From the NCBI GenBank assembly GCA_019054805.1, contig JAHQIY010000006.1, positions 5,022,001 through 5,086,000 of the forward strand: a stretch of DNA of 64,000 bases, read 5' to 3'. This document shows positions 9,301 to 39,630 of this stretch, in pieces. The stretch comes from Brachionus manjavacas. Its lineage: Eukaryota > Rotifera > Eurotatoria > Ploima > Brachionidae. Position 1 is the first letter of the stretch, and the number at the start of each line of letters is the position of its first letter. Under the pieces are notes generated by a model. It was not told where the DNA came from and did not search any database. It saw only the letters and a list, made by a program, of their open reading frames with translations. Both the position numbers and the translations under genes were made by a program.

Positions 9301-10440
9301 ACTATTTTTCAATCATTATCGTTTTAGGTAAAACTCTAGTCTTAAGGAAAAAAATTTCAATTGATTTATTAACAATTTAATTTATTTTAATAATTTTGTA
9401 CGAAAGTCAACGACATAGTTTTTTAGGTGTTTCTTTAATTAATTAGCCAACACTATACTTTGGAGCGAAGATATTAAAATTTCTCTTGTTATTTTGGTTG
9501 CTGAATTTTTAGGACTATCCATTAACAAAATTTTAATTTAAATTTAATTAGAATTTTTAAAAATAGACCAAGTTGAATGTAAGGACATGTAGATGCTGTG
9601 TTTCATCAAGCATGGATCTAGTCTCTCTATTAACTAAATTTTTAGAACGAGATAATTTTAAGGGTGGTAAACAAATGAATTTAGAAATTTTATAGTCAAA
9701 TTTAATTTAAAAAGATTTGGTGTCCCAAATGATTTGGCTTATTGTTTGAGTTTATTTTTAGCAAAACTTGTCTAAAAAACTAGCAATTACAAAAAAAATA
9801 TGAAATGAAATCGTTCTAACTTTGGTTGGTTTAAATTCTTAAAAGCCATAAAAATTTTGTTTGTTCAAATTTTCTCTTCCTCCATTTCAAATAAAATAAT
9901 AATAAATATATTAATAAAAAAACTTGTTCTCAGTTTGTTGTTTACTGCTTGTTCGTCAAATGCATATATTTTAAGTCTAATTTAAAAAATTTTTTAAATT
10001 TGTCAGTTCTTGGAGAAAATTTGTAATTTTATTGTATTTAAATAAATAAATAAAACAAAATTTTTTTTCATAGGAGTTAGTTATTTGTTTTGAGAGAAAA
10101 CAAAATTTCTAGCTCTTGTTTTTCTTTTGTTTAAACGACTATTAGCGATTTTTTCCGCATTCCCTCACTTAAAATTTTAAATCTTTTTAATTTCGAGTTA
10201 ATTGATTCTATTTATCTGAAAGAACTCTATTGCCAGTCTAGTTTAGCAGATGTATTGAAAAGATGTAGAATGTAATGAAATTTTGTTTTACGCAGTTTTC
10301 AATACTGAACTGATTCAATCGATTTTTCGATTAAGAATCATGCATTCAGTGTATTTCAAAAATTGGCTGGTTTGGAGCTAGCCGTCACAAAATAAGATCT
10401 TATCTAAGAGTGAGAAATTCGAAATTTTATTAATTGAGAG
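6336..10440. other. AT-rich intergenic region, nothing identified
   Basis: About 4.1 kb after the 334-residue gene. A stretch at about 8400-8580 is visibly less AT-rich and contains a 15-nt palindrome (GAGCATAGTATGCTC at about 8421), but it is closed by stop codons in the frames I read. It is not a tRNA. I see no gene here. Confidence 0.55.
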
Positions 10441-10717
10441 CATAACATGAAGCTTGTTAGAGAAATTAGTAAACGCGGCTCATTTAGGTACAATTTTTTA
10501 TCGAACAGAATTGTGTCAAGGTGGAATGATTTACCACAAAGTGTGGTGAATGCTGAAACAGTCAATAGCTTCAAATCGGGTATTGATAAAGAAGTGTTTG
10601 GTGTGGTGCAGAGAAAGCAAAGAAAGACTGCCACAGCTCAACTTGAGCTAAACGCCTTTTGGTGTTAGTGTAGATTTATTCTATATTGCAGTTCTTATTA
10701 CTACTACTACTACTACC
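10441..10717 (+). mobile_element. 5'-truncated non-LTR retrotransposon, 3' end of ORF2
   Basis: The frame from about 10441 to 10668 encodes the extreme C-terminus of a non-LTR reverse transcriptase ORF. It shows the pattern typical of CR1/L2/Jockey-type tails: RYNFLSNRIVSRWNDLPQSV, followed by VVNAETVNSFKSGIDKE. After the stop comes a short 3' untranslated segment that ends in a (TAC)n microsatellite at 10699-10717, as is common for such elements. No reverse transcriptase core, endonuclease or 5' end is present, so this is a dead, 5'-truncated insertion. The frame is still open, so it may be relatively recent. A LINE on the minus strand at 53271-54612 ends in the same kind of trinucleotide tail. 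Confidence 0.75.
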
Positions 10718-18100: not shown

Positions 18101-19717
18101 TGTAATTTTCAAACAAAATTTAGATCTGAAATTTCCATTTTTAATAAAAAAGATAATTTAAGTGTGTGATTCTTTAATTAATTTGTTTGAAAAAAAGGTT
18201 TTCTTTTTTGGAAGCCATTTGTTTAAAATAAATATGTATTAGAGCTTTAAAAATTTCATCTAAGACTCCATTGAATTTTTTTATTATCTTTTTGCGTAAT
18301 AAATATTTATTGACACCATTGTAAATGTATCCAAAAACAAATAAACACTATCATTCTATGGTATAAATTCTATTCTTGATATTCATTTAAAAAATTTTAT
18401 TTAAATTTTTACACTTCAAGCTCGAAGAAAATGCAAATATTTAATCAAGCGAAATGTAGTACAATCAAAATATTTTACCTTGTTTCAAGCTAAATTCAAT
18501 AAAGTTCACTTTTTATTACTTTTTTACGTGTATTATTAATAATTAATATTCCGAATACTGCAAGATAAAGCTCATAATCCCAAAACTAATAAAAATAATC
18601 GTTTTCCCTGAAAACAAATTAGATAATAGTTTTTATTTTAATTTCTATTGTATTTTTCCCCCAGAAAAATAATTAAAAAAAATAAATAGTCGTTTTAAAT
18701 GTTTAACTTTTATAGTTTTAAAAATTAAATTAGCATTAACAAGACCAAATTTAGTATAAATTTTCTTTTTTTAAACAAACTGCTAAATAAAGTTATTAAC
18801 AACTAGATTAAAAAATTTCAAGAATTAAAGAACTTGGCCAAATTAATAGTAGGCTTTATTTAATTAGAAACAAAGGTTATCTAAATCAATCAATGTTACG
18901 TAACTTAAAGGATTTATTATCGCTGAAGAAGCTCAAAAAATTAAGGGATGATTGCTTTTATCTTTTTCTTTTCTAAATTCTTTTCTCAAAGATTGGTTTT
19001 ACGATGATTATATTAAATATTACATTAAAGCGATTTATAATTTTTTTTTCAACTATTTTATTTTTTATTTTGTTTTTTTTTAGTTATATTCTTTATTTTA
19101 AAGCTAATGAGGCAATTTTGTATGTAAAAATAAATAAATTATAAGATATATGTAGAGGGAACGATCCCACTTTAACCATTATCTATTATTATAATATTTT
19201 ATTTATTTGAGGGAAACCCTTAGGTTACTCAGAATGGAACAAAGTCCTTCTTTTTAGGCTAATGATTATTAAATAGGATCAAAAATTGTTAATGTGTTTC
19301 GAGTAAAAATTAATAATAAAATAAAAAACATAAAACCATAAAGCAAATTAAATTTAAGTAAAAGCTTTTCCACAGAAAAATGAATTACTTGTTAAAAAAA
19401 ATATTTAGGCATTTGTAGGTGTCATTTAATTTTTTCTTGAAAAATATAAATTTTCTTCAATTTAAATTTTCACAGTTAAATCGACAAAGATCTGTTTAGA
19501 GAATTATTGATATTAGAGTAAACTTAATTTATTTAGATTTACAACAAGAGAAGAGATCAATAAATTTCAAAATCGAGCGATTGAGTTTATTTGAAAAATC
19601 TCTTCTAAATAAAAAATTGAATGGTGTTGAATTGAATTTACAAAAAAAATAAAAAGGTAAACATACTTGAATATAAATTGATAATAATCAAAAAAAAAAT
19701 TTATCTAAAATCACAAG
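15124..19717. other. AT-rich region upstream of the AHNAK-like gene
   Basis: About 4.6 kb with no supported gene. It holds one copy of a short dispersed repeat (19206-19262). The last part directly precedes the ATG of the giant repeat protein and must contain its promoter, but no convincing TATA box could be singled out among many AT-rich candidates. Confidence 0.5.
19206..19262 (+). repeat. short dispersed repeat, copy 1
   Basis: About 56 bp sharing the block CAGAATGGAAC, one variable base, AAGTCCTTCTTTTTAG with the sequence at 35843-35898 in the same orientation. Both copies start with TTTGAGGG. The function is unknown; it is probably a fragment of an interspersed element. Confidence 0.55.
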
Positions 19718-22700
19718 ATGTTATCAGAAACACAAGAAATTCAAAAAAGACCTTTTTCCGCAAACGATATGAATAGAAGGACAAGAGAGGTAAAAATATA
19801 CAATACGACTACAATAACGACAACTTCGACATCTACAGCAGCAGACTCAATCGTTAAATCAACTGATATGTACCAATCAGATAATTATGGTTCATTTTCA
19901 CTGCAAAATGATTGCAGAAGTAAATCAGCCCAGGGAGTAATAAATGTAAATCGAGAATCTAAAAATAATAACACATGTTATGCAAATATTACAACGAATA
20001 CATCAATATCACTGCCTATTAAAAGAAAAATTAGATTTATCTATGGAGAAAGCGACGAAAATCAGCAAACAAAAAGGGTAACTGAAAATGAAAATAAAAA
20101 AAATAAAGAGGTAAAGAGGGATTCAAACTGCGAATGTGAAGAAAATATTTCAAAATTTCCATTCGAACAAAATGGTGAAAACAAAAATGAACAATACGAC
20201 AATTTTGATTTTAAAAAAAATTGCAGTATGAAAGTAAAAGATGTAGAAGTGGAATGTGAAATAGAAGAAGACCCAGCAATTTTGGAAGGCTCAGAAGGAT
20301 ATGTTAAAAAATTAATAAATAAAATACAGCAGCAATATAAAAATCCAGAAACTGTGCACATAAAAATAACAAGAAGACAAAAACCAAAGTTAATAAATGA
20401 AACAGATGGTAAAGAGCACGGACAAATTGTAAAAAAAGAATATTATACTATCAAAAACCTGAGAAGACAAAAAAAAAGCTCAAGTATAAGTTCATTTATT
20501 GATCAAACAAACATACCATATATTGATGATGAATCATTAAACAATTCAAGAAATAGTTGGTACAATAATAAGATAACAGATAATTATATAATAGAAAAGC
20601 ATGAAATTTATGATCAAGATACGTTAAAAGATGGTATAAAAGGATTCTTCAAGGGAATCGGAGGAAAGATCAAGGCACCAGATGTTCATATACCAGACGT
20701 TAGTGTTTCAGGACCAGATATTAATCTACCAAAATTTAAGGGACCGAAATTCGAAGGTCCTGATGTAAACATCAAGGGTCCAAGAGTGGATGTACCTGAC
20801 GTTTCTATAGATACTAGTTTACCGAACGTTGATGTTGATTTACATGGTCCGAAATTCAAAGGTCCCAAAGTCGATTTACCTGATGTTGATTTAGATGTAA
20901 AAGGACCAAAAATATCTGGACCTTCAATAGACATCAATGCTCCTGATGTTGATTTAAATGCTCCTGACGTAAAGGGAGGCTTAAAAGGATTCTTCAAGGG
21001 AATCGGAGGAAAGATCAAGGCACCAGATGTTCATATACCAGACGTTAGTGTTTCAGGACCAGATATTAATCTACCAAAATTTAAGGGACCGAAATTCGAA
21101 GGTCCTGATGTAAACATCAAGGGTCCAAGAGTGGATGTACCTGACGTTTCTATAGATACTAGTTTACCGAACGTTGATGTTGATTTACATGGTCCGAAAT
21201 TCAAAGGTCCCAAAGTCGATTTACCTGATGTTGATTTAGATGTAAAAGGACCAAAAATATCTGGACCTTCAATAGACATAAATGCTCCTGATGTTGATTT
21301 AAATGCTCCTGACGTAAAGGGAGGCTTAAAAGGATTCTTCAAGGGAATCGGAGGAAAGATCAAGGCACCAGATGTTCATATACCAGACGTTAGTGTTTCA
21401 GGACCAGATATTAATCTACCAAAATTTAAGGGACCGAAATTCGAAGGTCCTGATGTAAACATCAAGGGTCCAAGAGTGGATGTACCTGACGTTTCTATAG
21501 ATACTAGTTTACCGAACGTTGATGTTGATTTACATGGTCCGAAATTCAAAGGTCCCAAAGTCGATTTACCTGATGTTGATTTAGATGTAAAAGGACCAAA
21601 AATATCTGGACCTTCAATAGACATCAATGCTCCTGATGTTGATTTAAATGCTCCTGACGTAAAGGGAGGCTTAAAAGGATTCTTCAAGGGAATCGGAGGA
21701 AAGATCAAGGCACCAGATGTTCATATACCAGACGTTAGTGTTTCAGGACCAGATATTAATCTACCAAAATTTAAGGGACCGAAATTCGAAGGTCCTGATG
21801 TAAACATCAAGGGTCCAAGAGTGGATGTACCTGACGTTTCTATAGATACTAGTTTACCGAACGTTGATGTTGATTTACATGGTCCGAAATTCAAAGGTCC
21901 CAAAGTCGATTTACCTGATGTTGATTTAGATGTAAAAGGACCAAAAATATCTGGACCTTCAATAGACATCAATGCTCCTGATGTTGATTTAAATGCTCCT
22001 GACGTAAAGGGAGGCTTAAAAGGATTCTTCAAGGGAATCGGAGGAAAGATCAAGGCACCAGATGTTCATATACCAGACGTTAGTGTTTCAGGACCAGATA
22101 TTAATCTACCAAAATTTAAGGGACCGAAATTCGAAGGTCCTGATGTAAACATCAAGGGTCCAAGAGTGGATGTACCTGACGTTTCTATAGATACTAGTTT
22201 ACCGAACGTTGATGTTGATTTACATGGTCCGAAATTCAAAGGTCCCAAAGTCGATTTACCTGATGTTGATTTAGATGTAAAAGGACCAAAAATATCTGGA
22301 CCTTCAATAGACATAAATGCTCCTGATGTTGATTTAAATGCTCCTGACGTAAAGGGAGGCTTAAAAGGATTCTTCAAGGGAATCGGAGGAAAGATCAAGG
22401 CACCAGATGTTCATATACCAGACGTTAGTGTTTCAGGACCAGATATTAATCTACCAAAATTTAAGGGACCGAAATTCGAAGGTCCTGATGTAAACATCAA
22501 GGGTCCAAGAGTGGATGTACCTGACGTTTCTATAGATACTAGTTTACCGAACGTTGATGTTGATTTACATGGTCCGAAATTCAAAGGTCCCAAAGTCGAT
22601 TTACCTGATGTTGATTTAGATGTAAAAGGACCAAAAATATCTGGACCTTCAATAGACATCAATGCTCCTGATGTTGATTTAAATGCTCCTGACGTAAAGG

Positions 22701-25700
22701 GAGGCTTAAAAGGATTCTTCAAGGGAATCGGAGGAAAGATCAAGGCACCAGATGTTCATATACCAGACGTTAGTGTTTCAGGACCAGATATTAATCTACC
22801 AAAATTTAAGGGACCGAAATTCGAAGGTCCTGATGTAAACATCAAGGGTCCAAGAGTGGATGTACCTGACGTTTCTATAGATACTAGTTTACCGAACGTT
22901 GATGTTGATTTACATGGTCCGAAATTCAAAGGTCCCAAAGTCGATTTACCTGATGTTGATTTAGATGTAAAAGGACCAAAAATATCTGGACCTTCAATAG
23001 ACATCAATGCTCCTGATGTTGATTTAAATGCTCCTGACGTAAAGGGAGGCTTAAAAGGATTCTTCAAGGGAATCGGAGGAAAGATCAAGGCACCAGATGT
23101 TCATATACCAGACGTTAGTGTTTCAGGACCAGATATTAATCTACCAAAATTTAAGGGACCGAAATTCGAAGGTCCTGATGTAAACATCAAGGGTCCAAGA
23201 GTGGATGTACCTGACGTTTCTATAGATACTAGTTTACCGAACGTTGATGTTGATTTACATGGTCCGAAATTCAAAGGTCCCAAAGTCGATTTACCTGATG
23301 TTGATTTAGATGTAAAAGGACCAAAAATATCTGGACCTTCAATAGACATCAATGCTCCTGATGTTGATTTAAATGCTCCTGACGTAAAGGGAGGCTTAAA
23401 AGGATTCTTCAAGGGAATCGGAGGAAAGATCAAGGCACCAGATGTTCATATACCAGACGTTAGTGTTTCAGGACCAGATATTAATCTACCAAAATTTAAG
23501 GGACCGAAATTCGAAGGTCCTGATGTAAACATCAAGGGTCCAAGAGTGGATGTACCTGACGTTTCTATAGATACTAGTTTACCGAACGTTGATGTTGATT
23601 TACATGGTCCGAAATTCAAAGGTCCCAAAGTCGATTTACCTGATGTTGATTTAGATGTAAAAGGACCAAAAATATCTGGACCTTCAATAGACATAAATGC
23701 TCCTGATGTTGATTTAAATGCTCCTGACGTAAAGGGAGGCTTAAAAGGATTCTTCAAGGGAATCGGAGGAAAGATCAAGGCACCAGATGTTCATATACCA
23801 GACGTTAGTGTTTCAGGACCAGATATTAATCTACCAAAATTTAAGGGACCGAAATTCGAAGGTCCTGATGTAAACATCAAGGGTCCAAGAGTGGATGTAC
23901 CTGACGTTTCTATAGATACTAGTTTACCGAACGTTGATGTTGATTTACATGGTCCGAAATTCAAAGGTCCCAAAGTCGATTTACCTGATGTTGATTTAGA
24001 TGTAAAAGGACCAAAAATATCTGGACCTTCAATAGACATAAATGCTCCTGATGTTGATTTAAATGCTCCTGACGTAAAGGGAGGCTTAAAAGGATTCTTC
24101 AAGGGAATCGGAGGAAAGATCAAGGCACCAGATGTTCATATACCAGACGTTAGTGTTTCAGGACCAGATATTAATCTACCAAAATTTAAGGGACCGAAAT
24201 TCGAAGGTCCTGATGTAAACATCAAGGGTCCAAGAGTGGATGTACCTGACGTTTCTATAGATACTAGTTTACCGAACGTTGATGTTGATTTACATGGTCC
24301 GAAATTCAAAGGTCCCAAAGTCGATTTACCTGATGTTGATTTAGATGTAAAAGGACCAAAAATATCTGGACCTTCAATAGACATCAATGCTCCTGATGTT
24401 GATTTAAATGCTCCTGACGTAAAGGGAGGCTTAAAAGGATTCTTCAAGGGAATCGGAGGAAAGATCAAGGCACCAGATGTTCATATACCAGACGTTAGTG
24501 TTTCAGGACCAGATATTAATCTACCAAAATTTAAGGGACCGAAATTCGAAGGTCCTGATGTAAACATCAAGGGTCCAAGAGTGGATGTACCTGACGTTTC
24601 TATAGATACTAGTTTACCGAACGTTGATGTTGATTTACATGGTCCGAAATTCAAAGGTCCCAAAGTCGATTTACCTGATGTTGATTTAGATGTAAAAGGA
24701 CCAAAAATATCTGGACCTTCAATAGACATAAATGCTCCTGATGTTGATTTAAATGCTCCTGACGTAAAGGGAGGCTTAAAAGGATTCTTCAAGGGAATCG
24801 GAGGAAAGATCAAGGCACCAGATGTTCATATACCAGACGTTAGTGTTTCAGGACCAGATATTAATCTACCAAAATTTAAGGGACCGAAATTCGAAGGTCC
24901 TGATGTAAACATCAAGGGTCCAAGAGTGGATGTACCTGACGTTTCTATAGATACTAGTTTACCGAACGTTGATGTTGATTTACATGGTCCGAAATTCAAA
25001 GGTCCCAAAGTCGATTTACCTGATGTTGATTTAGATGTAAAAGGACCAAAAATATCTGGACCTTCAATAGACATCAATGCTCCTGATGTTGATTTAAATG
25101 CTCCTGACGTAAAGGGAGGCTTAAAAGGATTCTTCAAGGGAATCGGAGGAAAGATCAAGGCACCAGATGTTCATATACCAGACGTTAGTGTTTCAGGACC
25201 AGATATTAATCTACCAAAATTTAAGGGACCGAAATTCGAAGGTCCTGATGTAAACATCAAGGGTCCAAGAGTGGATGTACCTGACGTTTCTATAGATACT
25301 AGTTTACCGAACGTTGATGTTGATTTACATGGTCCGAAATTCAAAGGTCCCAAAGTCGATTTACCTGATGTTGATTTAGATGTAAAAGGACCAAAAATAT
25401 CTGGACCTTCAATAGACATCAATGCTCCTGATGTTGATTTAAATGCTCCTGACGTAAAGGGAGGCTTAAAAGGATTCTTCAAGGGAATCGGAGGAAAGAT
25501 CAAGGCACCAGATGTTCATATACCAGACGTTAGTGTTTCAGGACCAGATATTAATCTACCAAAATTTAAGGGACCGAAATTCGAAGGTCCTGATGTAAAC
25601 ATCAAGGGTCCAAGAGTGGATGTACCTGACGTTTCTATAGATACTAGTTTAGCGAACGTTGATGTTGATTTACATGGTCCGAAATTCAAAGGTCCCAAAG

Positions 25701-28231
25701 TCGATTTACCTGATGTTGATTTAGATGTAAAAGGACCAAAAATATCTGGACCTTCAATAGACATCAATGCTCCTGATGTTGATTTAAATGCTCCTGACGT
25801 AAAGGGAGGCTTAAAAGGATTCTTCAAGGGAATCGGAGGAAAGATCAAGGCACCAGATGTTCATATACCAGACGTTAGTGTTTCAGGACCAGATATTAAT
25901 CTACCAAAATTTAAGGGACCGAAATTCGAAGGTCCTGATGTAAACATCAAGGGTCCAAGAGTGGATGTACCTGACGTTTCTATAGATACTAGTTTAGCGA
26001 ACGTTGATGTTGATTTACATGGTCCGAAATTCAAAGGTCCCAAAGTCGATTTACCTGATGTTGATTTAGATGTAAAAGGACCAAAAATATCTGGACCTTC
26101 AATAGACATCAATGCTCCTGATGTTGATTTAAATGCTCCTGACGTAAAGGGAGGCTTAAAAGGATTCTTCAAGGGAATCGGAGGAAAGATCAAGGCACCA
26201 GATGTTCATATACCAGACGTTAGTGTTTCAGGACCAGATATTAATCTACCAAAATTTAAGGGACCGAAATTCGAAGGTCCTGATGTAAACATCAAGGGTC
26301 CAAGAGTGGATGTACCTGACGTTTCTATAGATACTAGTTTACCGAACGTTGATGTTGATTTACATGGTCCGAAATTCAAAGGTCCCAAAGTCGATTTACC
26401 TGATGTTGATTTAGATGTAAAAGGACCAAAAATATCTGGACCTTCAATAGACATCAATGCTCCTGATGTTGATTTAAATGCTCCTGACGTAAAGGGAGGC
26501 TTAAAAGGATTCTTCAAGGGAATCGGAGGAAAGATCAAGGCACCAGATGTTCATATACCAGACGTTAGTGTTTCAGGACCAGATATTAATCTACCAAAAT
26601 TTAAGGGACCGAAATTCGAAGGTCCTGATGTAAACATCAAGGGTCCAAGAGTGGATGTACCTGACGTTTCTATAGATACTAGTTTACCGAACGTTGATGT
26701 TGATTTACATGGTCCGAAATTCAAAGGTCCCAAAGTCGATTTACCTGATGTTGATTTAGATGTAAAAGGACCAAAAATATCTGGACCTTCAATAGACATC
26801 AATGCTCCTGATGTTGATTTAAATGCTCCTGACGTAAAGGGAGGCTTAAAAGGATTCTTCAAGGGAATCGGAGGAAAGATCAAGGCACCAGATGTTCATA
26901 TACCAGACGTTAGTGTTTCAGGACCAGATATTAATCTACCAAAATTTAAGGGACCGAAATTCGAAGGTCCTGATGTAAACATCAAGGGTCCAAGAGTGGA
27001 TGTACCTGACGTTTCTATAGATACTAGTTTACCGAACGTTGATGTTGATTTACATGGTCCGAAATTCAAAGGTCCCAAAGTCGATTTACCTGATGTTGAT
27101 TTAGATGTAAAAGGACCAAAAATATCTGGACCTTCAATAGACATCAATGCTCCTGATGTTGATTTAAATGCTCCTGACGTAAAGGGAGGCTTAAAAGGAT
27201 TCTTCAAGGGAATCGGAGGAAAGATCAAGGCACCAGATGTTCATATACCAGACGTTAGTGTTTCAGGACCAGATATTAATCTACCAAAATTTAAGGGACC
27301 GAAATTCGAAGGTCCTGATGTAAACATCAAGGGTCCAAGAGTGGATGTACCTGACGTTTCTATAGATACTAGTTTAATTAATCCTACGAAATCTGTAATC
27401 AGTCCTATTTTTAATTCAATCATTCCAGATATTTATGCCGAATCTAGACTTTCATATGATGATGATCTTAAAGATTATTTTTATGGTGTTGATCTTCCTA
27501 TGACTATTGTTAATCATGACTGGTATTGGTCTCCTCAAAATATGGCTCATTCTTCTTTCGAAAAACTTCATTATCAAACTTCATTGAATGCAAACAATGA
27601 CTTGGTCCCATTTGGAAAATATTTTATTGCAAATCATACTTCTAAATCAGCCCAAATTCCTCTGTCTTCCCTTAATCTTGATTTCGAATTTCACAAAGCC
27701 AAAATCCGTCTTGATTCTTTTAATCCGGCTTTGAATCCTCCCGGTGAAAATTCTCTTTTAAACGAAATTTCGACGGCTTCGTTTATCGACAAACCTTCTA
27801 AGAACACCAAACTCCGTCATCAGTCATCATCATCCGTAAATAAGCCTGAAAAAAAACCATCTTTATTTTCAACTAAATCTTTTCGCTCTTTGTCTGTTGA
27901 CGCATATCCAAAGGCTGATTCTTCTCAACCACGAAAAGTTATTCTTCAAACCATCCCTGATTTTGATGGATTGGGTATTCATATTGCATGTGATAGAAAA
28001 TCACGCTGTTCTTCCTACATTTATGAAATCGAATCAAATAGTCCAGGTGCAAAAGCTGGGTTGAAGGAAAAAGAATTTATTTTGGAGATTAATGATGAAG
28101 ATGTTGTATTTCTCGATTTTGATCAATTAATTCAAAAAATTCAGACTTTAATAAAAGAAAACAGCCTTTCACTTACAGTTGGAAACGAGAAGGCCTTTAA
28201 GAAATGGGTCAAAACTCACAAGAAAAAATAA
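19718..28231 (+). CDS. giant AHNAK/periaxin-like repeat protein with C-terminal PDZ domain
   Basis: An intronless frame of 2837 residues. Residues 1-305 are a polar, probably disordered head (Thr-rich 28-45, Lys/Glu/Asn-rich 90-170). Residues 306-2553 are 19 complete 115-residue repeats plus a 63-residue partial one, each starting G(L/I)KGFFKGIGGKIKAPDV. The rest of each unit is a chain of PDV, FKGPK and VKGP motifs, the hallmark of the AHNAK/periaxin central region. Residues 2554-2837 are unique and end in a PDZ-like domain (about 2738-2825) with carboxylate-binding loop GLGI at 2751-2754, then YIYEIESNSPGAKAGL and a basic tail. In vertebrates AHNAK and periaxin are scaffolds under the plasma membrane, with the PDZ-like domain at the N-terminus; here it is at the C-terminus. 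A cortical scaffold role is inferred from the family. One giant exon also matches AHNAK gene structure. An AATAAA lies at 28337-28342. I prefer 'AHNAK-like' to a strict orthologue call because repeats of this kind can arise independently. Confidence 0.88.
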   Translation: MLSETQEIQKRPFSANDMNRRTREVKIYNTTTITTTSTSTAADSIVKSTDMYQSDNYGSFSLQNDCRSKSAQGVINVNRESKNNNTCYANITTNTSISLPIKRKIRFIYGESDENQQTKRVTENENKKNKEVKRDSNCECEENISKFPFEQNGENKNEQYDNFDFKKNCSMKVKDVEVECEIEEDPAILEGSEGYVKKLINKIQQQYKNPETVHIKITRRQKPKLINETDGKEHGQIVKKEYYTIKNLRRQKKSSSISSFIDQTNIPYIDDESLNNSRNSWYNNKITDNYIIEKHEIYDQDTLKDGIKGFFKGIGGKIKAPDVHIPDVSVSGPDINLPKFKGPKFEGPDVNIKGPRVDVPDVSIDTSLPNVDVDLHGPKFKGPKVDLPDVDLDVKGPKISGPSIDINAPDVDLNAPDVKGGLKGFFKGIGGKIKAPDVHIPDVSVSGPDINLPKFKGPKFEGPDVNIKGPRVDVPDVSIDTSLPNVDVDLHGPKFKGPKVDLPDVDLDVKGPKISGPSIDINAPDVDLNAPDVKGGLKGFFKGIGGKIKAPDVHIPDVSVSGPDINLPKFKGPKFEGPDVNIKGPRVDVPDVSIDTSLPNVDVDLHGPKFKGPKVDLPDVDLDVKGPKISGPSIDINAPDVDLNAPDVKGGLKGFFKGIGGKIKAPDVHIPDVSVSGPDINLPKFKGPKFEGPDVNIKGPRVDVPDVSIDTSLPNVDVDLHGPKFKGPKVDLPDVDLDVKGPKISGPSIDINAPDVDLNAPDVKGGLKGFFKGIGGKIKAPDVHIPDVSVSGPDINLPKFKGPKFEGPDVNIKGPRVDVPDVSIDTSLPNVDVDLHGPKFKGPKVDLPDVDLDVKGPKISGPSIDINAPDVDLNAPDVKGGLKGFFKGIGGKIKAPDVHIPDVSVSGPDINLPKFKGPKFEGPDVNIKGPRVDVPDVSIDTSLPNVDVDLHGPKFKGPKVDLPDVDLDVKGPKISGPSIDINAPDVDLNAPDVKGGLKGFFKGIGGKIKAPDVHIPDVSVSGPDINLPKFKGPKFEGPDVNIKGPRVDVPDVSIDTSLPNVDVDLHGPKFKGPKVDLPDVDLDVKGPKISGPSIDINAPDVDLNAPDVKGGLKGFFKGIGGKIKAPDVHIPDVSVSGPDINLPKFKGPKFEGPDVNIKGPRVDVPDVSIDTSLPNVDVDLHGPKFKGPKVDLPDVDLDVKGPKISGPSIDINAPDVDLNAPDVKGGLKGFFKGIGGKIKAPDVHIPDVSVSGPDINLPKFKGPKFEGPDVNIKGPRVDVPDVSIDTSLPNVDVDLHGPKFKGPKVDLPDVDLDVKGPKISGPSIDINAPDVDLNAPDVKGGLKGFFKGIGGKIKAPDVHIPDVSVSGPDINLPKFKGPKFEGPDVNIKGPRVDVPDVSIDTSLPNVDVDLHGPKFKGPKVDLPDVDLDVKGPKISGPSIDINAPDVDLNAPDVKGGLKGFFKGIGGKIKAPDVHIPDVSVSGPDINLPKFKGPKFEGPDVNIKGPRVDVPDVSIDTSLPNVDVDLHGPKFKGPKVDLPDVDLDVKGPKISGPSIDINAPDVDLNAPDVKGGLKGFFKGIGGKIKAPDVHIPDVSVSGPDINLPKFKGPKFEGPDVNIKGPRVDVPDVSIDTSLPNVDVDLHGPKFKGPKVDLPDVDLDVKGPKISGPSIDINAPDVDLNAPDVKGGLKGFFKGIGGKIKAPDVHIPDVSVSGPDINLPKFKGPKFEGPDVNIKGPRVDVPDVSIDTSLPNVDVDLHGPKFKGPKVDLPDVDLDVKGPKISGPSIDINAPDVDLNAPDVKGGLKGFFKGIGGKIKAPDVHIPDVSVSGPDINLPKFKGPKFEGPDVNIKGPRVDVPDVSIDTSLPNVDVDLHGPKFKGPKVDLPDVDLDVKGPKISGPSIDINAPDVDLNAPDVKGGLKGFFKGIGGKIKAPDVHIPDVSVSGPDINLPKFKGPKFEGPDVNIKGPRVDVPDVSIDTSLANVDVDLHGPKFKGPKVDLPDVDLDVKGPKISGPSIDINAPDVDLNAPDVKGGLKGFFKGIGGKIKAPDVHIPDVSVSGPDINLPKFKGPKFEGPDVNIKGPRVDVPDVSIDTSLANVDVDLHGPKFKGPKVDLPDVDLDVKGPKISGPSIDINAPDVDLNAPDVKGGLKGFFKGIGGKIKAPDVHIPDVSVSGPDINLPKFKGPKFEGPDVNIKGPRVDVPDVSIDTSLPNVDVDLHGPKFKGPKVDLPDVDLDVKGPKISGPSIDINAPDVDLNAPDVKGGLKGFFKGIGGKIKAPDVHIPDVSVSGPDINLPKFKGPKFEGPDVNIKGPRVDVPDVSIDTSLPNVDVDLHGPKFKGPKVDLPDVDLDVKGPKISGPSIDINAPDVDLNAPDVKGGLKGFFKGIGGKIKAPDVHIPDVSVSGPDINLPKFKGPKFEGPDVNIKGPRVDVPDVSIDTSLPNVDVDLHGPKFKGPKVDLPDVDLDVKGPKISGPSIDINAPDVDLNAPDVKGGLKGFFKGIGGKIKAPDVHIPDVSVSGPDINLPKFKGPKFEGPDVNIKGPRVDVPDVSIDTSLINPTKSVISPIFNSIIPDIYAESRLSYDDDLKDYFYGVDLPMTIVNHDWYWSPQNMAHSSFEKLHYQTSLNANNDLVPFGKYFIANHTSKSAQIPLSSLNLDFEFHKAKIRLDSFNPALNPPGENSLLNEISTASFIDKPSKNTKLRHQSSSSVNKPEKKPSLFSTKSFRSLSVDAYPKADSSQPRKVILQTIPDFDGLGIHIACDRKSRCSSYIYEIESNSPGAKAGLKEKEFILEINDEDVVFLDFDQLIQKIQTLIKENSLSLTVGNEKAFKKWVKTHKKK
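20633..27376 (+). repeat. in-frame tandem array, 19.5 copies of a 345-bp unit
   Basis: The period is exactly 345 bp (115 codons). Units start at 20633 and every 345 bp to 27188, where the last unit stops after 63 codons at TSL. The units are almost identical at DNA level. The variants I see are ATC or ATA in the Ile codon of the INAPDV motif (ATA in units 2, 5, 9, 10 and 12) and CCG to GCG (Pro to Ala) in adjacent units 15 and 16. The first unit also starts GIKG rather than GLKG. The array is clearly richer in GC than its flanks. Such identity, even at synonymous sites, implies recent expansion or ongoing unequal exchange or gene conversion. Confidence 0.97.
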
Positions 28232-36124: not shown

Positions 36125-37137
36125 TTCACGAGGATGTCCTTCGGACTGTCAATAGCCCCCTACGTCCAGCAGTCTTTACTGAACTGTGTCCTTAGGTTTA
36201 TTAAAAAGCACACAAAGTACACCTACGGACATCTGGACGATCTTATCGTAGCACACTCAGACTATAAAAAGCTCTAGGTCTTGCTGAGTGTGCTAAGGGC
36301 AAAATTTAAGTTAGCGGGGTGGGTGCTTAACACCCATAAGTCAGTCATGAACCCGGTAAGAAAACTAAATTTCCTGGGAGCAGAGTGGTACGGTCTAGGG
36401 ATTACCCGTAGTAAGGATGCCTCTGCCTTCGTAAATTCCATGGCGAGGTCCCTTTTACATTCCGACCCTTAGGAAAGAGCCCTCATGAGAGTGAGAAGGT
36501 ATTTATAATATTATCTAGGGTACTCTGGGAAGGTCAATCAAATTATCAACACCTTCCTGAAAATGACTATCACCACCAGAAAAGAATACTGGTGGTACAT
36601 GAGCCTGCTCATTCACATTGACAGGCTCAAATTCAGAAGGACCTGGTATACGGACGCTTCTGAGTACCAGTTGGAGGCAGTCGTTGACGACTCGGGAAGT
36701 GATTTCTCAGTCGTCGCTCCCACGGACTCAATTCTTTTTAATGAAGCTTCTTTGCTGCCTTTTGTACTAGATAACCGCCCATACCAAATCAAAATCCAAA
36801 TCCACAACATGGCAGTGATAGGTTTGTGGAAGCGAGTAAGAGCCAAGTGGGCTCGTTACTACTCAAGTGGGAAAGAATCAATGCACAGGTTCTTCTCCCT
36901 GATACTGATGGTCAACTTTTACCGGGCAACAAACAATATATACGTGACGTACGTGCCTTCTGCCGAAAATCCGGCAGACGGACCTTCAAGAAGGCCCATA
37001 TCTCCGTAAACATCACCTACGCCTTGGCAACGTCACGATCCGTATAAATATAAGCTGTGTATCGGGCAGCTTTCGAAACTTTTTCTATTTTAATTTAATA
37101 AAAACTGACTGACTCGTGGTCATCCACCGGTCATCAT
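36125..37137 (+). mobile_element. GC-rich retroelement remnant with LTR-like 3' end
   Basis: A sharply bounded island, roughly half G+C by eye, within a background of about a quarter G+C. It contains the reverse transcriptase/RNase H frame 36134-37009. After it comes a segment with TATAAATA (37043-37050), then AATAAA (37097-37102), then an end of the form ...CCACCGGTCATCATAATCCACA. A promoter element and polyadenylation signal close together, downstream of the coding part, look like a long terminal repeat. No second copy is present upstream, so the element is 5'-truncated. No integrase or tyrosine recombinase is seen between RNase H and the putative LTR. Confidence 0.65.
36134..37009 (+). pseudogene. 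reverse transcriptase and RNase H of a retroelement, inactivated by stops
   Basis: One continuous frame, broken by three stop codons and no frameshift. The reverse transcriptase part shows GLSIAPYV and the catalytic box as HLDDLIV, followed by NFLGAEW. RNase H begins with WYTDAS (first catalytic Asp) and ends with VPSAENPADGPSR (last catalytic Asp). The pattern fits long-terminal-repeat-like retroelements (Ty3-like, DIRS-like or related); I cannot decide between them. The 5' part of the reverse transcriptase and any gag, protease or integrase are missing. The stops make it non-functional. Codon use and GC are unlike the neighbouring host genes. Confidence 0.8.
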
Positions 37138-38328: not shown

Positions 38329-39630
38329 TTAAAAGTCACTATCATTTTCGTCAAAGGGCACATTACGTTGAATTACTTTTCCTTTATTTTGCATACCTTT
38401 CATTTTTCCTCCACTTATGTGCAAATCTTCATCATCTTCATCATTTGGTTCTTCATCGTCATCTTCATCCTCTTCATCGTCATCATCTTCCTCGTCCTCT
38501 TCATCGTCATCATCTTCATCTTCATTTTCAGAGCCACTTAAATCAGCGTCCATAGCTCCGAAATTCTTCTGCTGAAGCTGTTGTTTTCTGGCACGTGCAT
38601 TAATAGCACTCTTAGATATTCTATCTTGTTTTCTACCAGCGCCCTGGTCATCACTTTGATCCGAATCAGCTGAAATAAGCATTTCATCATCATCCAAGAA
38701 TGGATTACCATTTCTTTCCTTCTCTTGTTCTTTTAATTTTTTATTAGCTAGTTGCATTCGGCGAGCCGATTCCTCAAACTTTTCCTGTTCACTTTGATTG
38801 TACTCATCTAATTGCTGTTCCAGATAAGATTGGGTTCTAAACTTGATCAAATATTCTTCATACAATTGTTCAAGCTCTTTTTCAAGCGCTTCATATTCGT
38901 CCATGAATGCAGGTCTTACTTCTTTTAAAGTGCGCAAACGGCCCATGTTTTTTTCCAAATCAGCGCGTTTTTTTTCTATTTTTTCATCTAAATTCTTTTC
39001 ATCTAAATGAATGTTATCCAACATGGTCGCTGTTTTTTCGCCTTCACGCTGGCATGCCTTAATGGCATCCCTAATTCCTTTTTCTACATCCGAAAGCTCT
39101 AGATTTCTATTAATTGTATAAGTTCTCATGTCTCTTAGATCGACCTCGCGCCCCAGCAGGTCAAAAATGCTAGAGCCTTTTAATGTTATCTCTGAAGCTA
39201 GTTCTCTTGCTCGCCTTAAGTCGCCGATCTGAGATGATATATCGAACTGGATGTTCAAATTTCGGTCTGAATTTTCATCTTCATTTTCTTTTTCTTGATT
39301 ATATTTCAGCGCATTATACAAAACTGAAGTCATTTTTAATAATTCTTTTACCACGTAGCCATCGGCTTGGTAGAGTTTTTTTGTGTTGAGTTTAATATGG
39401 GCTTTAGTGGCCATGAACTGTGCGACACTTTTAATGAACAAAATACGGTCCGATTCGGTATCTATTTCTGTCGGTATATCTGCTGTAGGGTCGTAGCGTT
39501 TCACTAACCATTTTAAAAGTTCGGCTAAGAGTGGAAAGTTTGGTTGGCGAAAATTTTCGACAGATATCAAACGCGGGTAGCCCAGCACTCTAGTCATCTC
39601 ACAAAAATTTTTTATGTCCCGATAAGACAT
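38329..39630 (-). CDS. CLUAP1: clusterin-associated protein 1 homologue (IFT38)
   Basis: Intronless, 433 residues (human CLUAP1 is about 413). It starts MSYRDIKNFCEMTRVLGYPR, the conserved beginning of the family. Residues 1 to about 130 form the calponin-homology-like N-terminal domain with LLKWLVKRYDP. Residues of about 170-320 are a long charged coiled coil (for example MGRLRTLKEVRPAFMDEYEA). The tail (about 340-433) is a highly acidic Asp/Glu run followed by a short basic end. In the family this protein is IFT38, a peripheral subunit of intraflagellar transport complex B, needed to build and maintain cilia. Full length and intact motifs suggest function. The acidic tail is low-complexity and may differ between relatives. 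Confidence 0.95.
   Translation of the reverse strand: MSYRDIKNFCEMTRVLGYPRLISVENFRQPNFPLLAELLKWLVKRYDPTADIPTEIDTESDRILFIKSVAQFMATKAHIKLNTKKLYQADGYVVKELLKMTSVLYNALKYNQEKENEDENSDRNLNIQFDISSQIGDLRRARELASEITLKGSSIFDLLGREVDLRDMRTYTINRNLELSDVEKGIRDAIKACQREGEKTATMLDNIHLDEKNLDEKIEKKRADLEKNMGRLRTLKEVRPAFMDEYEALEKELEQLYEEYLIKFRTQSYLEQQLDEYNQSEQEKFEESARRMQLANKKLKEQEKERNGNPFLDDDEMLISADSDQSDDQGAGRKQDRISKSAINARARKQQLQQKNFGAMDADLSGSENEDEDDDDEEDEEDDDDEEDEDDDEEPNDEDDEDLHISGGKMKGMQNKGKVIQRNVPFDENDSDF

Follow-up and report, generated by a model that had tools for sequence, protein, structure and literature searches.

Mucins, filaggrin and AHNAK2 all provide examples of coding tandem repeats that can expand, and in vertebrate AHNAK, AHNAK2 and periaxin the repeats sit in one giant exon. 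For AHNAK2, a review describes an N-terminal PDZ domain and 24 predicted repeats, highly conserved, about 165 amino acids long and with a predicted β-strand make-up (PMC8833689). The periaxin PDZ domain is reported to have a structure that, among known PDZ proteins, only AHNAK2 shares (PMC7072810). A survey of 17 mouse genomes lists 428 genes with coding VNTR polymorphisms and units of up to 990 bp, among them Ubc, with 8-23 copies of 228 bp (pi 8.95e-3), and Muc4, with 14-27 copies of 369-372 bp (pi 0.107) (PMC12903361).

Among invertebrates, the tapeworm Echinococcus granulosus has a protein, EgrG_000760400.1, named 'Protein AHNAK2' in a proteome table; the AHNAK name has therefore already been given to invertebrate proteins, and the comparison with the present locus extends to the name (PMC4578768). 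The relevant passages of PMC2923515 and PMC5090203 bring up AHNAK solely as a partner of dysferlin or in chicken. Among the papers listed in our literature search, none dealt with an AHNAK gene from an invertebrate and none joined AHNAK and rotifer.

Here, we analyze a gene of the rotifer Brachionus manjavacas that combines AHNAK-like repeats with a PDZ domain. The analyzed window is a 64,000-nucleotide, AT-rich stretch (C6:5022001-5086000) of a 114.17-Mb assembly in 61 contigs.

Extent and uniformity of the repeat array

The array is real, and its homogeneity is extreme. TRF, for which rows of score 50 or more and period up to 500 were considered, and a unit-by-unit reading agree on the 19 full units (345 bp each) and one partial unit of nearly identical coding sequence that had been recognized from the sequence alone (Table 1). 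Of the extent given in the original prediction, the end at 27376 was confirmed, while the start at 20633 lies 4 bases early: at a lag of 345 the sequence is identical from 20637 onward, and 20635 and 20636 are mismatched. The array amounts to 19.54 copies and ends in a partial unit. No other TRF row in the window has a period above 36.

Table 1. Features of the repeat-bearing gene, in window positions
Feature	Positions	Strand	Details
Open frame, ATG to stop	19718-28231	+	2837 aa, about 302 kDa; whole array inside
Unique N-terminal region	19718-20636	+	about 306-307 aa; no known domain
Tandem array	20637-27376	+	TRF: period 345, 19.5 copies, 99% matches, 0% indels, score 13431
19 full units	20637-27191	+	345 bp (115 aa) each; codons start at 20639
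Unit 2	20982-21326	+	ATA variant (base 21280)
Unit 5	22017-22361	+	ATA variant (base 22315)
Units 9 and 10	23397-24086	+	ATA variant
Unit 12	24432-24776	+	ATA variant
Units 15 and 16	25467-26156	+	Pro>Ala variant
Partial 20th unit	27192-27376	+	185 bp, equal to consensus; unit-by-unit reading
Unique C-terminal region	27377-28228	+	284 aa, PDZ near end
PDZ match	27968-28177	+	residues 198-267 of region starting 27377

In the unit-by-unit comparison, only 2 of the 345 unit positions vary across the 19 full units. There are three distinct unit sequences, and no change is private to a single unit; the consensus is matched by 12 of the 19 full units and also by the partial 20th. Pairwise differences between units average 0.61 per 345 bp (pi 0.00176, or 0.18%) and reach 2 at most. 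Comparison at a lag of 345 gives 10 mismatches over 6395 positions, which excludes chance. The homogeneity at silent sites noted earlier is likewise supported: of roughly 79 silent sites in each unit, one is variable. At the edges, unit 1, unit 19 and the partial 20th all equal the consensus, and the borders of the array are sharp.

All units lie within one stop-to-stop ORF of 2840 aa (19709-28231). Across the array this is the only one of the six reading frames that is open, with 0 stops, while the other five contain 20 to 253. Together with the in-frame period of 345 bp, the continuous frame supports the earlier claim that the array is coding, the protein being a predicted one. An AG directly precedes the ATG at 19718, making an upstream exon possible. 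In the N-terminal region, Pfam gave no match up to E 10, and by eye none of the seven + strand pieces of at least 55 aa in the 9.7-19.7 kb interval looked like a PDZ frame.

The unit carries 15 positive and 18 negative residues and has no relative in the PDB up to E 10. Two Pfam models that scored on the repeats were judged compositional, since no single stretch passes alone in either case: LmeA (28.7 bits, cut-off 27.3) and ELFV_dehydrog_N, which remains below its cut-off.

An AHNAK-like proline grammar

The likeness to AHNAK was assessed against a single AHNAK sequence, a provisional human stretch of 362 residues. The unit contains 16 prolines, and within one unit all 15 spacings between prolines are odd, a result reached by none of 2000 shuffles. 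Over two tandem copies, 30 of the 31 spacings are odd (5, 7 or 9). In the same two copies, with each proline counted twice, V, I, L, M or F occupies P+2 in 32/32 cases and P-3 in 30/32, and is found in 0/32 at each of P-4, P-2, P+1, P+3 and P+5. The provisional human stretch follows the same pattern, with 44 of 47 spacings odd (a share again reached by 0 of 2000 shuffles) and no hydrophobics at these five offsets.

Aligned with this human stretch, the unit scores 225, the highest score among 500 residue shuffles being 82. Block shuffles, 500 of each kind and again with the provisional human sequence, reached at best 139 (blocks of three), 175 (four) and 189 (six). None of the Pfam matches in the gene is to an AHNAK repeat model. 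The proline grammar and the alignment (225 vs 189) give provisional support, as a lead, to the AHNAK-like repeat character first proposed. The accompanying statement, by which AHNAK repeats of other animals would as a rule be much more diverged, was too general, given the predicted conservation of the 24 AHNAK2 repeats (PMC8833689) and the place of mouse Ahnak2 among the coding VNTR genes with a wrong copy number in GRCm39 (PMC12903361). Judging by its sequence, the protein probably works like an AHNAK scaffold.

We also looked for relatives of the unit in bacterial and viral sequences. Among 100 candidate stretches from bacterial genomes one was confirmed, on an Anaerolineales MAG contig, where 42-bp repeats (L019:5272-5413) read as LPDVDL/LPKVDL in one frame, after a protein that by eye looks coiled-coil-like. 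We rejected it as a relative, judging this short LPDVDL-type repeat, which lies at the contig end, to be convergent; it indicates that short AHNAK-like motifs can arise independently. None of the seven candidates on viral contigs was confirmed as a relative.

The C-terminal PDZ domain

In the C-terminal region, PDZ-type models lead the Pfam list and none exceeds its own cut-off: PDZ_6 reaches 26.4 of the 27 bits required and PDZ 22.0 of 23.2, both just under. The PDB search returned 52 matches at E up to 0.1, the best being NHE-RF3 (E 7.4e-7), NHE-RF2 and NHE-RF1. AHNAK2 (4cn0) and periaxin (4cmz) are absent from these 52 matches, and both chains are in the searched library. BLASTP of the PDZ against a provisional periaxin PDZ sequence produced no hit, even with an E limit of 100.

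The original prediction had missed this domain. The gene is not a plain AHNAK: its PDZ sits at the C-terminus, and the best PDB matches of that domain are of the NHERF type. Such a C-terminal, NHERF-matching PDZ argues against membership of the vertebrate AHNAK family, as far as the predicted sequence can tell.

Within the rotifer's own genome, the C-terminal protein matched eight further places over the PDZ part (E 3.3e-7 to 7.6e-3), seven of which we took as loci L010-L016. When the PDZ was compared by itself, five of the seven (L010, L011, L012, L015 and L016) aligned within an E limit of 1, the best at E 8.9e-11; L013 and L014 did not align. L010 resembles NHERF. Frames of 150 aa or more in these seven loci hold 0 or 1 repeat motifs, and no TRF period above 35 was found in the 3.2-3.5 kb covered for each. 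Five of the PDZ-matching places (L011 and L013-L016) fall within about 190 kb at C1:3239794-3426241. Both L011 and L015 have three PDZ matches, and multi-PDZ genes, which we take to be NHERF-like, seem to be clustered on this contig.

Genomic context

Both genome searches with the unit gave at least 20 matches each among the best candidates scored, all of them in this array, and diverged paralogues may exist beyond these. The N-terminal protein matched one of nine scored genome candidates, which is itself, and the C-terminal DNA occurs at one place in 114 Mb, so that a single haplotype was recovered.

The neighborhood looks like one of ordinary animal genes, going by the domains in its open frames: NOL9/CLP1 and DHHC downstream on the + strand, and Cluap1, geminin, AMP-binding and helicase domains on the - strand. 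Rfam gave no match in the window, and a provisional rotifer spliced-leader sequence gave 0 matches when up to 3 mismatches were allowed. A short-period ATCTTC-like repeat lies at 38425-38530 within the Cluap1 open frame (- strand). At 10438-10665 on the + strand, a 76-aa frame with no Pfam match up to E 1 resembles, by eye, the end of a reverse transcriptase from a non-LTR retrotransposon. A DNA_pol_viral_C hit of 16.6 bits (cut-off 22.4) over 21 residues at 36509-37006 (+ strand) is probably due to chance.

Elsewhere in the assembly, the only COX1-family match lies at C21:120555-121901, in a 667-aa open frame at a locus of 34% GC. This frame looks like a bacterial ubiquinol oxidase subunit I, and contig C21 may be bacterial, from a symbiont or a contaminant.

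Variant units and duplication history

Two substitutions account for all differences between the full units. The first, C>A at unit position 299, is silent (ATC>ATA) and occurs in units 2, 5, 9, 10 and 12. The second, C>G at unit position 186, changes CCG to GCG (Pro to Ala) in units 15 and 16. The unit-by-unit comparison thus reproduces exactly the barcode reported at the outset. With C for consensus, A for ATA and G for Ala, the order of the full units is C A C C A C C C A A C A C C G G C C C.

In a search for histories restricted to block tandem duplications and substitutions, with deletions and conversion outside the model and an outcome that depends on the price of a substitution, the cheapest solution is either 2 substitutions with 8 block tandem duplications or 3 substitutions with 6 duplications. 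Two mutations of single origin and eight block tandem duplications are enough for the observed order.

The adjacent pairs 9/10 and 15/16, previously interpreted as direct unit duplications, carry less weight than was claimed. Under random placement, the two Ala units are adjacent with P 0.105, while the probability that the five ATA units include at least one adjacent pair is 0.74. More telling than the pairs is the scatter of the ATA units, which needs block duplications, conversion or repeated mutation.

Base composition was also considered. GC3 is 0.233-0.235 in the unit, compared with 0.193 and 0.236 in the rest of the gene, while GC at codon position 1 reaches 0.59 and is the source of the rise in GC. 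Because the rise comes from position 1 and not from position 3, it reflects amino-acid make-up, and GC-biased conversion was rejected as its cause, GC3 not being elevated.

Origin of the homogeneity

We consider it reasonably probable that the locus arose by recent in-place expansion of an AHNAK-type module through tandem block duplication, giving a scaffold-type protein. The low diversity between units (pi 0.00176), the unchanged edge units and the sharp borders all agree with recent copying as the source of homogeneity, as first suggested. Under a long steady state of exchange, the edges of an array are expected to decay; because the edge units here are without decay, recent expansion is the best reading. 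The process would have started from an AHNAK-type coding module present once or in few copies. Blocks holding one unit or several would then have been duplicated in tandem at the same site, perhaps by unequal exchange or slippage-type replication repair. The 19.54 copies count against this reading in its simplest form, since duplication of one 345-bp segment would not yield such a number, and the partial last unit implies a history that is more than that.

An old array held uniform by continuous concerted evolution, through unequal exchange and gene conversion, is the next most plausible explanation, although a clearly less likely one. Conversion or repeated exchange would produce scattered ATA units such as 2, 5, 9, 10 and 12, and the partial terminal unit likewise suggests a history beyond one duplication. 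However, general theory has the edge units of such an array, which take less part in exchange, diverging, whereas here they equal the consensus, and just two sites vary overall.

Errors of assembly or polishing, by which true units that differ more, or in number, would have been evened out in the consensus, seem an unlikely source of the pattern. They are the main caveat for the present array, because GRCm39 carries wrong copy numbers in five named genes, namely Ubc, Ahnak2, Flg and two others (PMC12903361), showing that such arrays can be mis-assembled. The single haplotype, with the C-terminal DNA at one place in 114 Mb, would also fit. Against this, both variants recur in several units, no private noise appears in 6740 bp, and the reading frame is intact throughout. 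In addition, the 6.7-Mb contig and the 61-contig assembly suggest the use of long reads, and the array with its anchors (about 8 kb) fits the usual long-read length.

Selection at the nucleotide level, on RNA structure or codon use, is highly improbable: silent sites are nearly as uniform as others, as it would predict, but nearly every base would have to be held, and codon use in the unit is mixed (Ile: ATC 4, ATA 4, ATT 1; Pro: CCA 6, CCT 6, CCG 3, CCC 1).

Expected properties of the protein

Under recent in-place expansion, the product would be a protein of 2837 residues with a center made of 19.5 copies of a 115-residue module. Its architecture suggests that it most likely serves as a scaffold, with a long, proline-punctuated, beta-prone polyampholyte between a unique N-terminus and the PDZ. 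The NHERF-like PDZ at the C-terminus would tether the protein to the tails of membrane proteins, and copy number would set both the length of the protein and the number of its binding sites. Copy number may well vary between individuals, the present data representing one haplotype in one assembly.

A broader proposal can be made tentatively. The gene may encode an invertebrate AHNAK-like scaffold of an origin separate from that of the vertebrate family, an NHERF-type PDZ protein that acquired an AHNAK-grammar module and expanded it into an array. This array would turn over so fast that all units trace back to one copy about as recently as alleles diverge from one another, and length alleles would segregate in the population. 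The reversed domain order, with repeats followed by an NHERF-like PDZ, raises the question of whether AHNAK-style repeats have been joined to PDZ domains more than once. With only two marker sites in the array, changes in length can be read as block events, and the rate and step size of change in a coding repeat would be directly measurable if lines were sequenced with long reads.

Comparison with known systems

The gene shares with AHNAK, AHNAK2 and periaxin a large protein built around a central array of long modules. All units lie in one open frame of 2840 aa, as the vertebrate repeats lie in a giant exon. The odd proline spacing with alternating hydrophobics agrees with that of AHNAK, as represented by the provisional human stretch. 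Unlike these three proteins, which have an N-terminal PDZ, the rotifer protein carries its PDZ at the C-terminus and has an N-terminus without a Pfam match. By its PDB matches, and by BLASTP with the provisional periaxin PDZ, the domain is not of the AHNAK2/periaxin type, and the unit measures 115 aa, compared with about 165 aa in AHNAK2. The NHERF/PDZK1 proteins are closest in their PDZ, which NHE-RF3, NHE-RF2 and NHE-RF1 match best; NHERF proteins are not known to carry such a repeat array.

As a coding repeat, the array resembles the mouse coding VNTRs of Ubc, Muc4, Flg and Ahnak2 in its long in-frame units, present in many copies and, in some of those genes, very alike. It differs from mouse Ubc in diversity, with a pi of 1.76e-3 here against 8.95e-3, values that are perhaps not comparable, the first coming from one assembly and the second from several strains. 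The kind of array is already known; the degree of its homogeneity is extreme.
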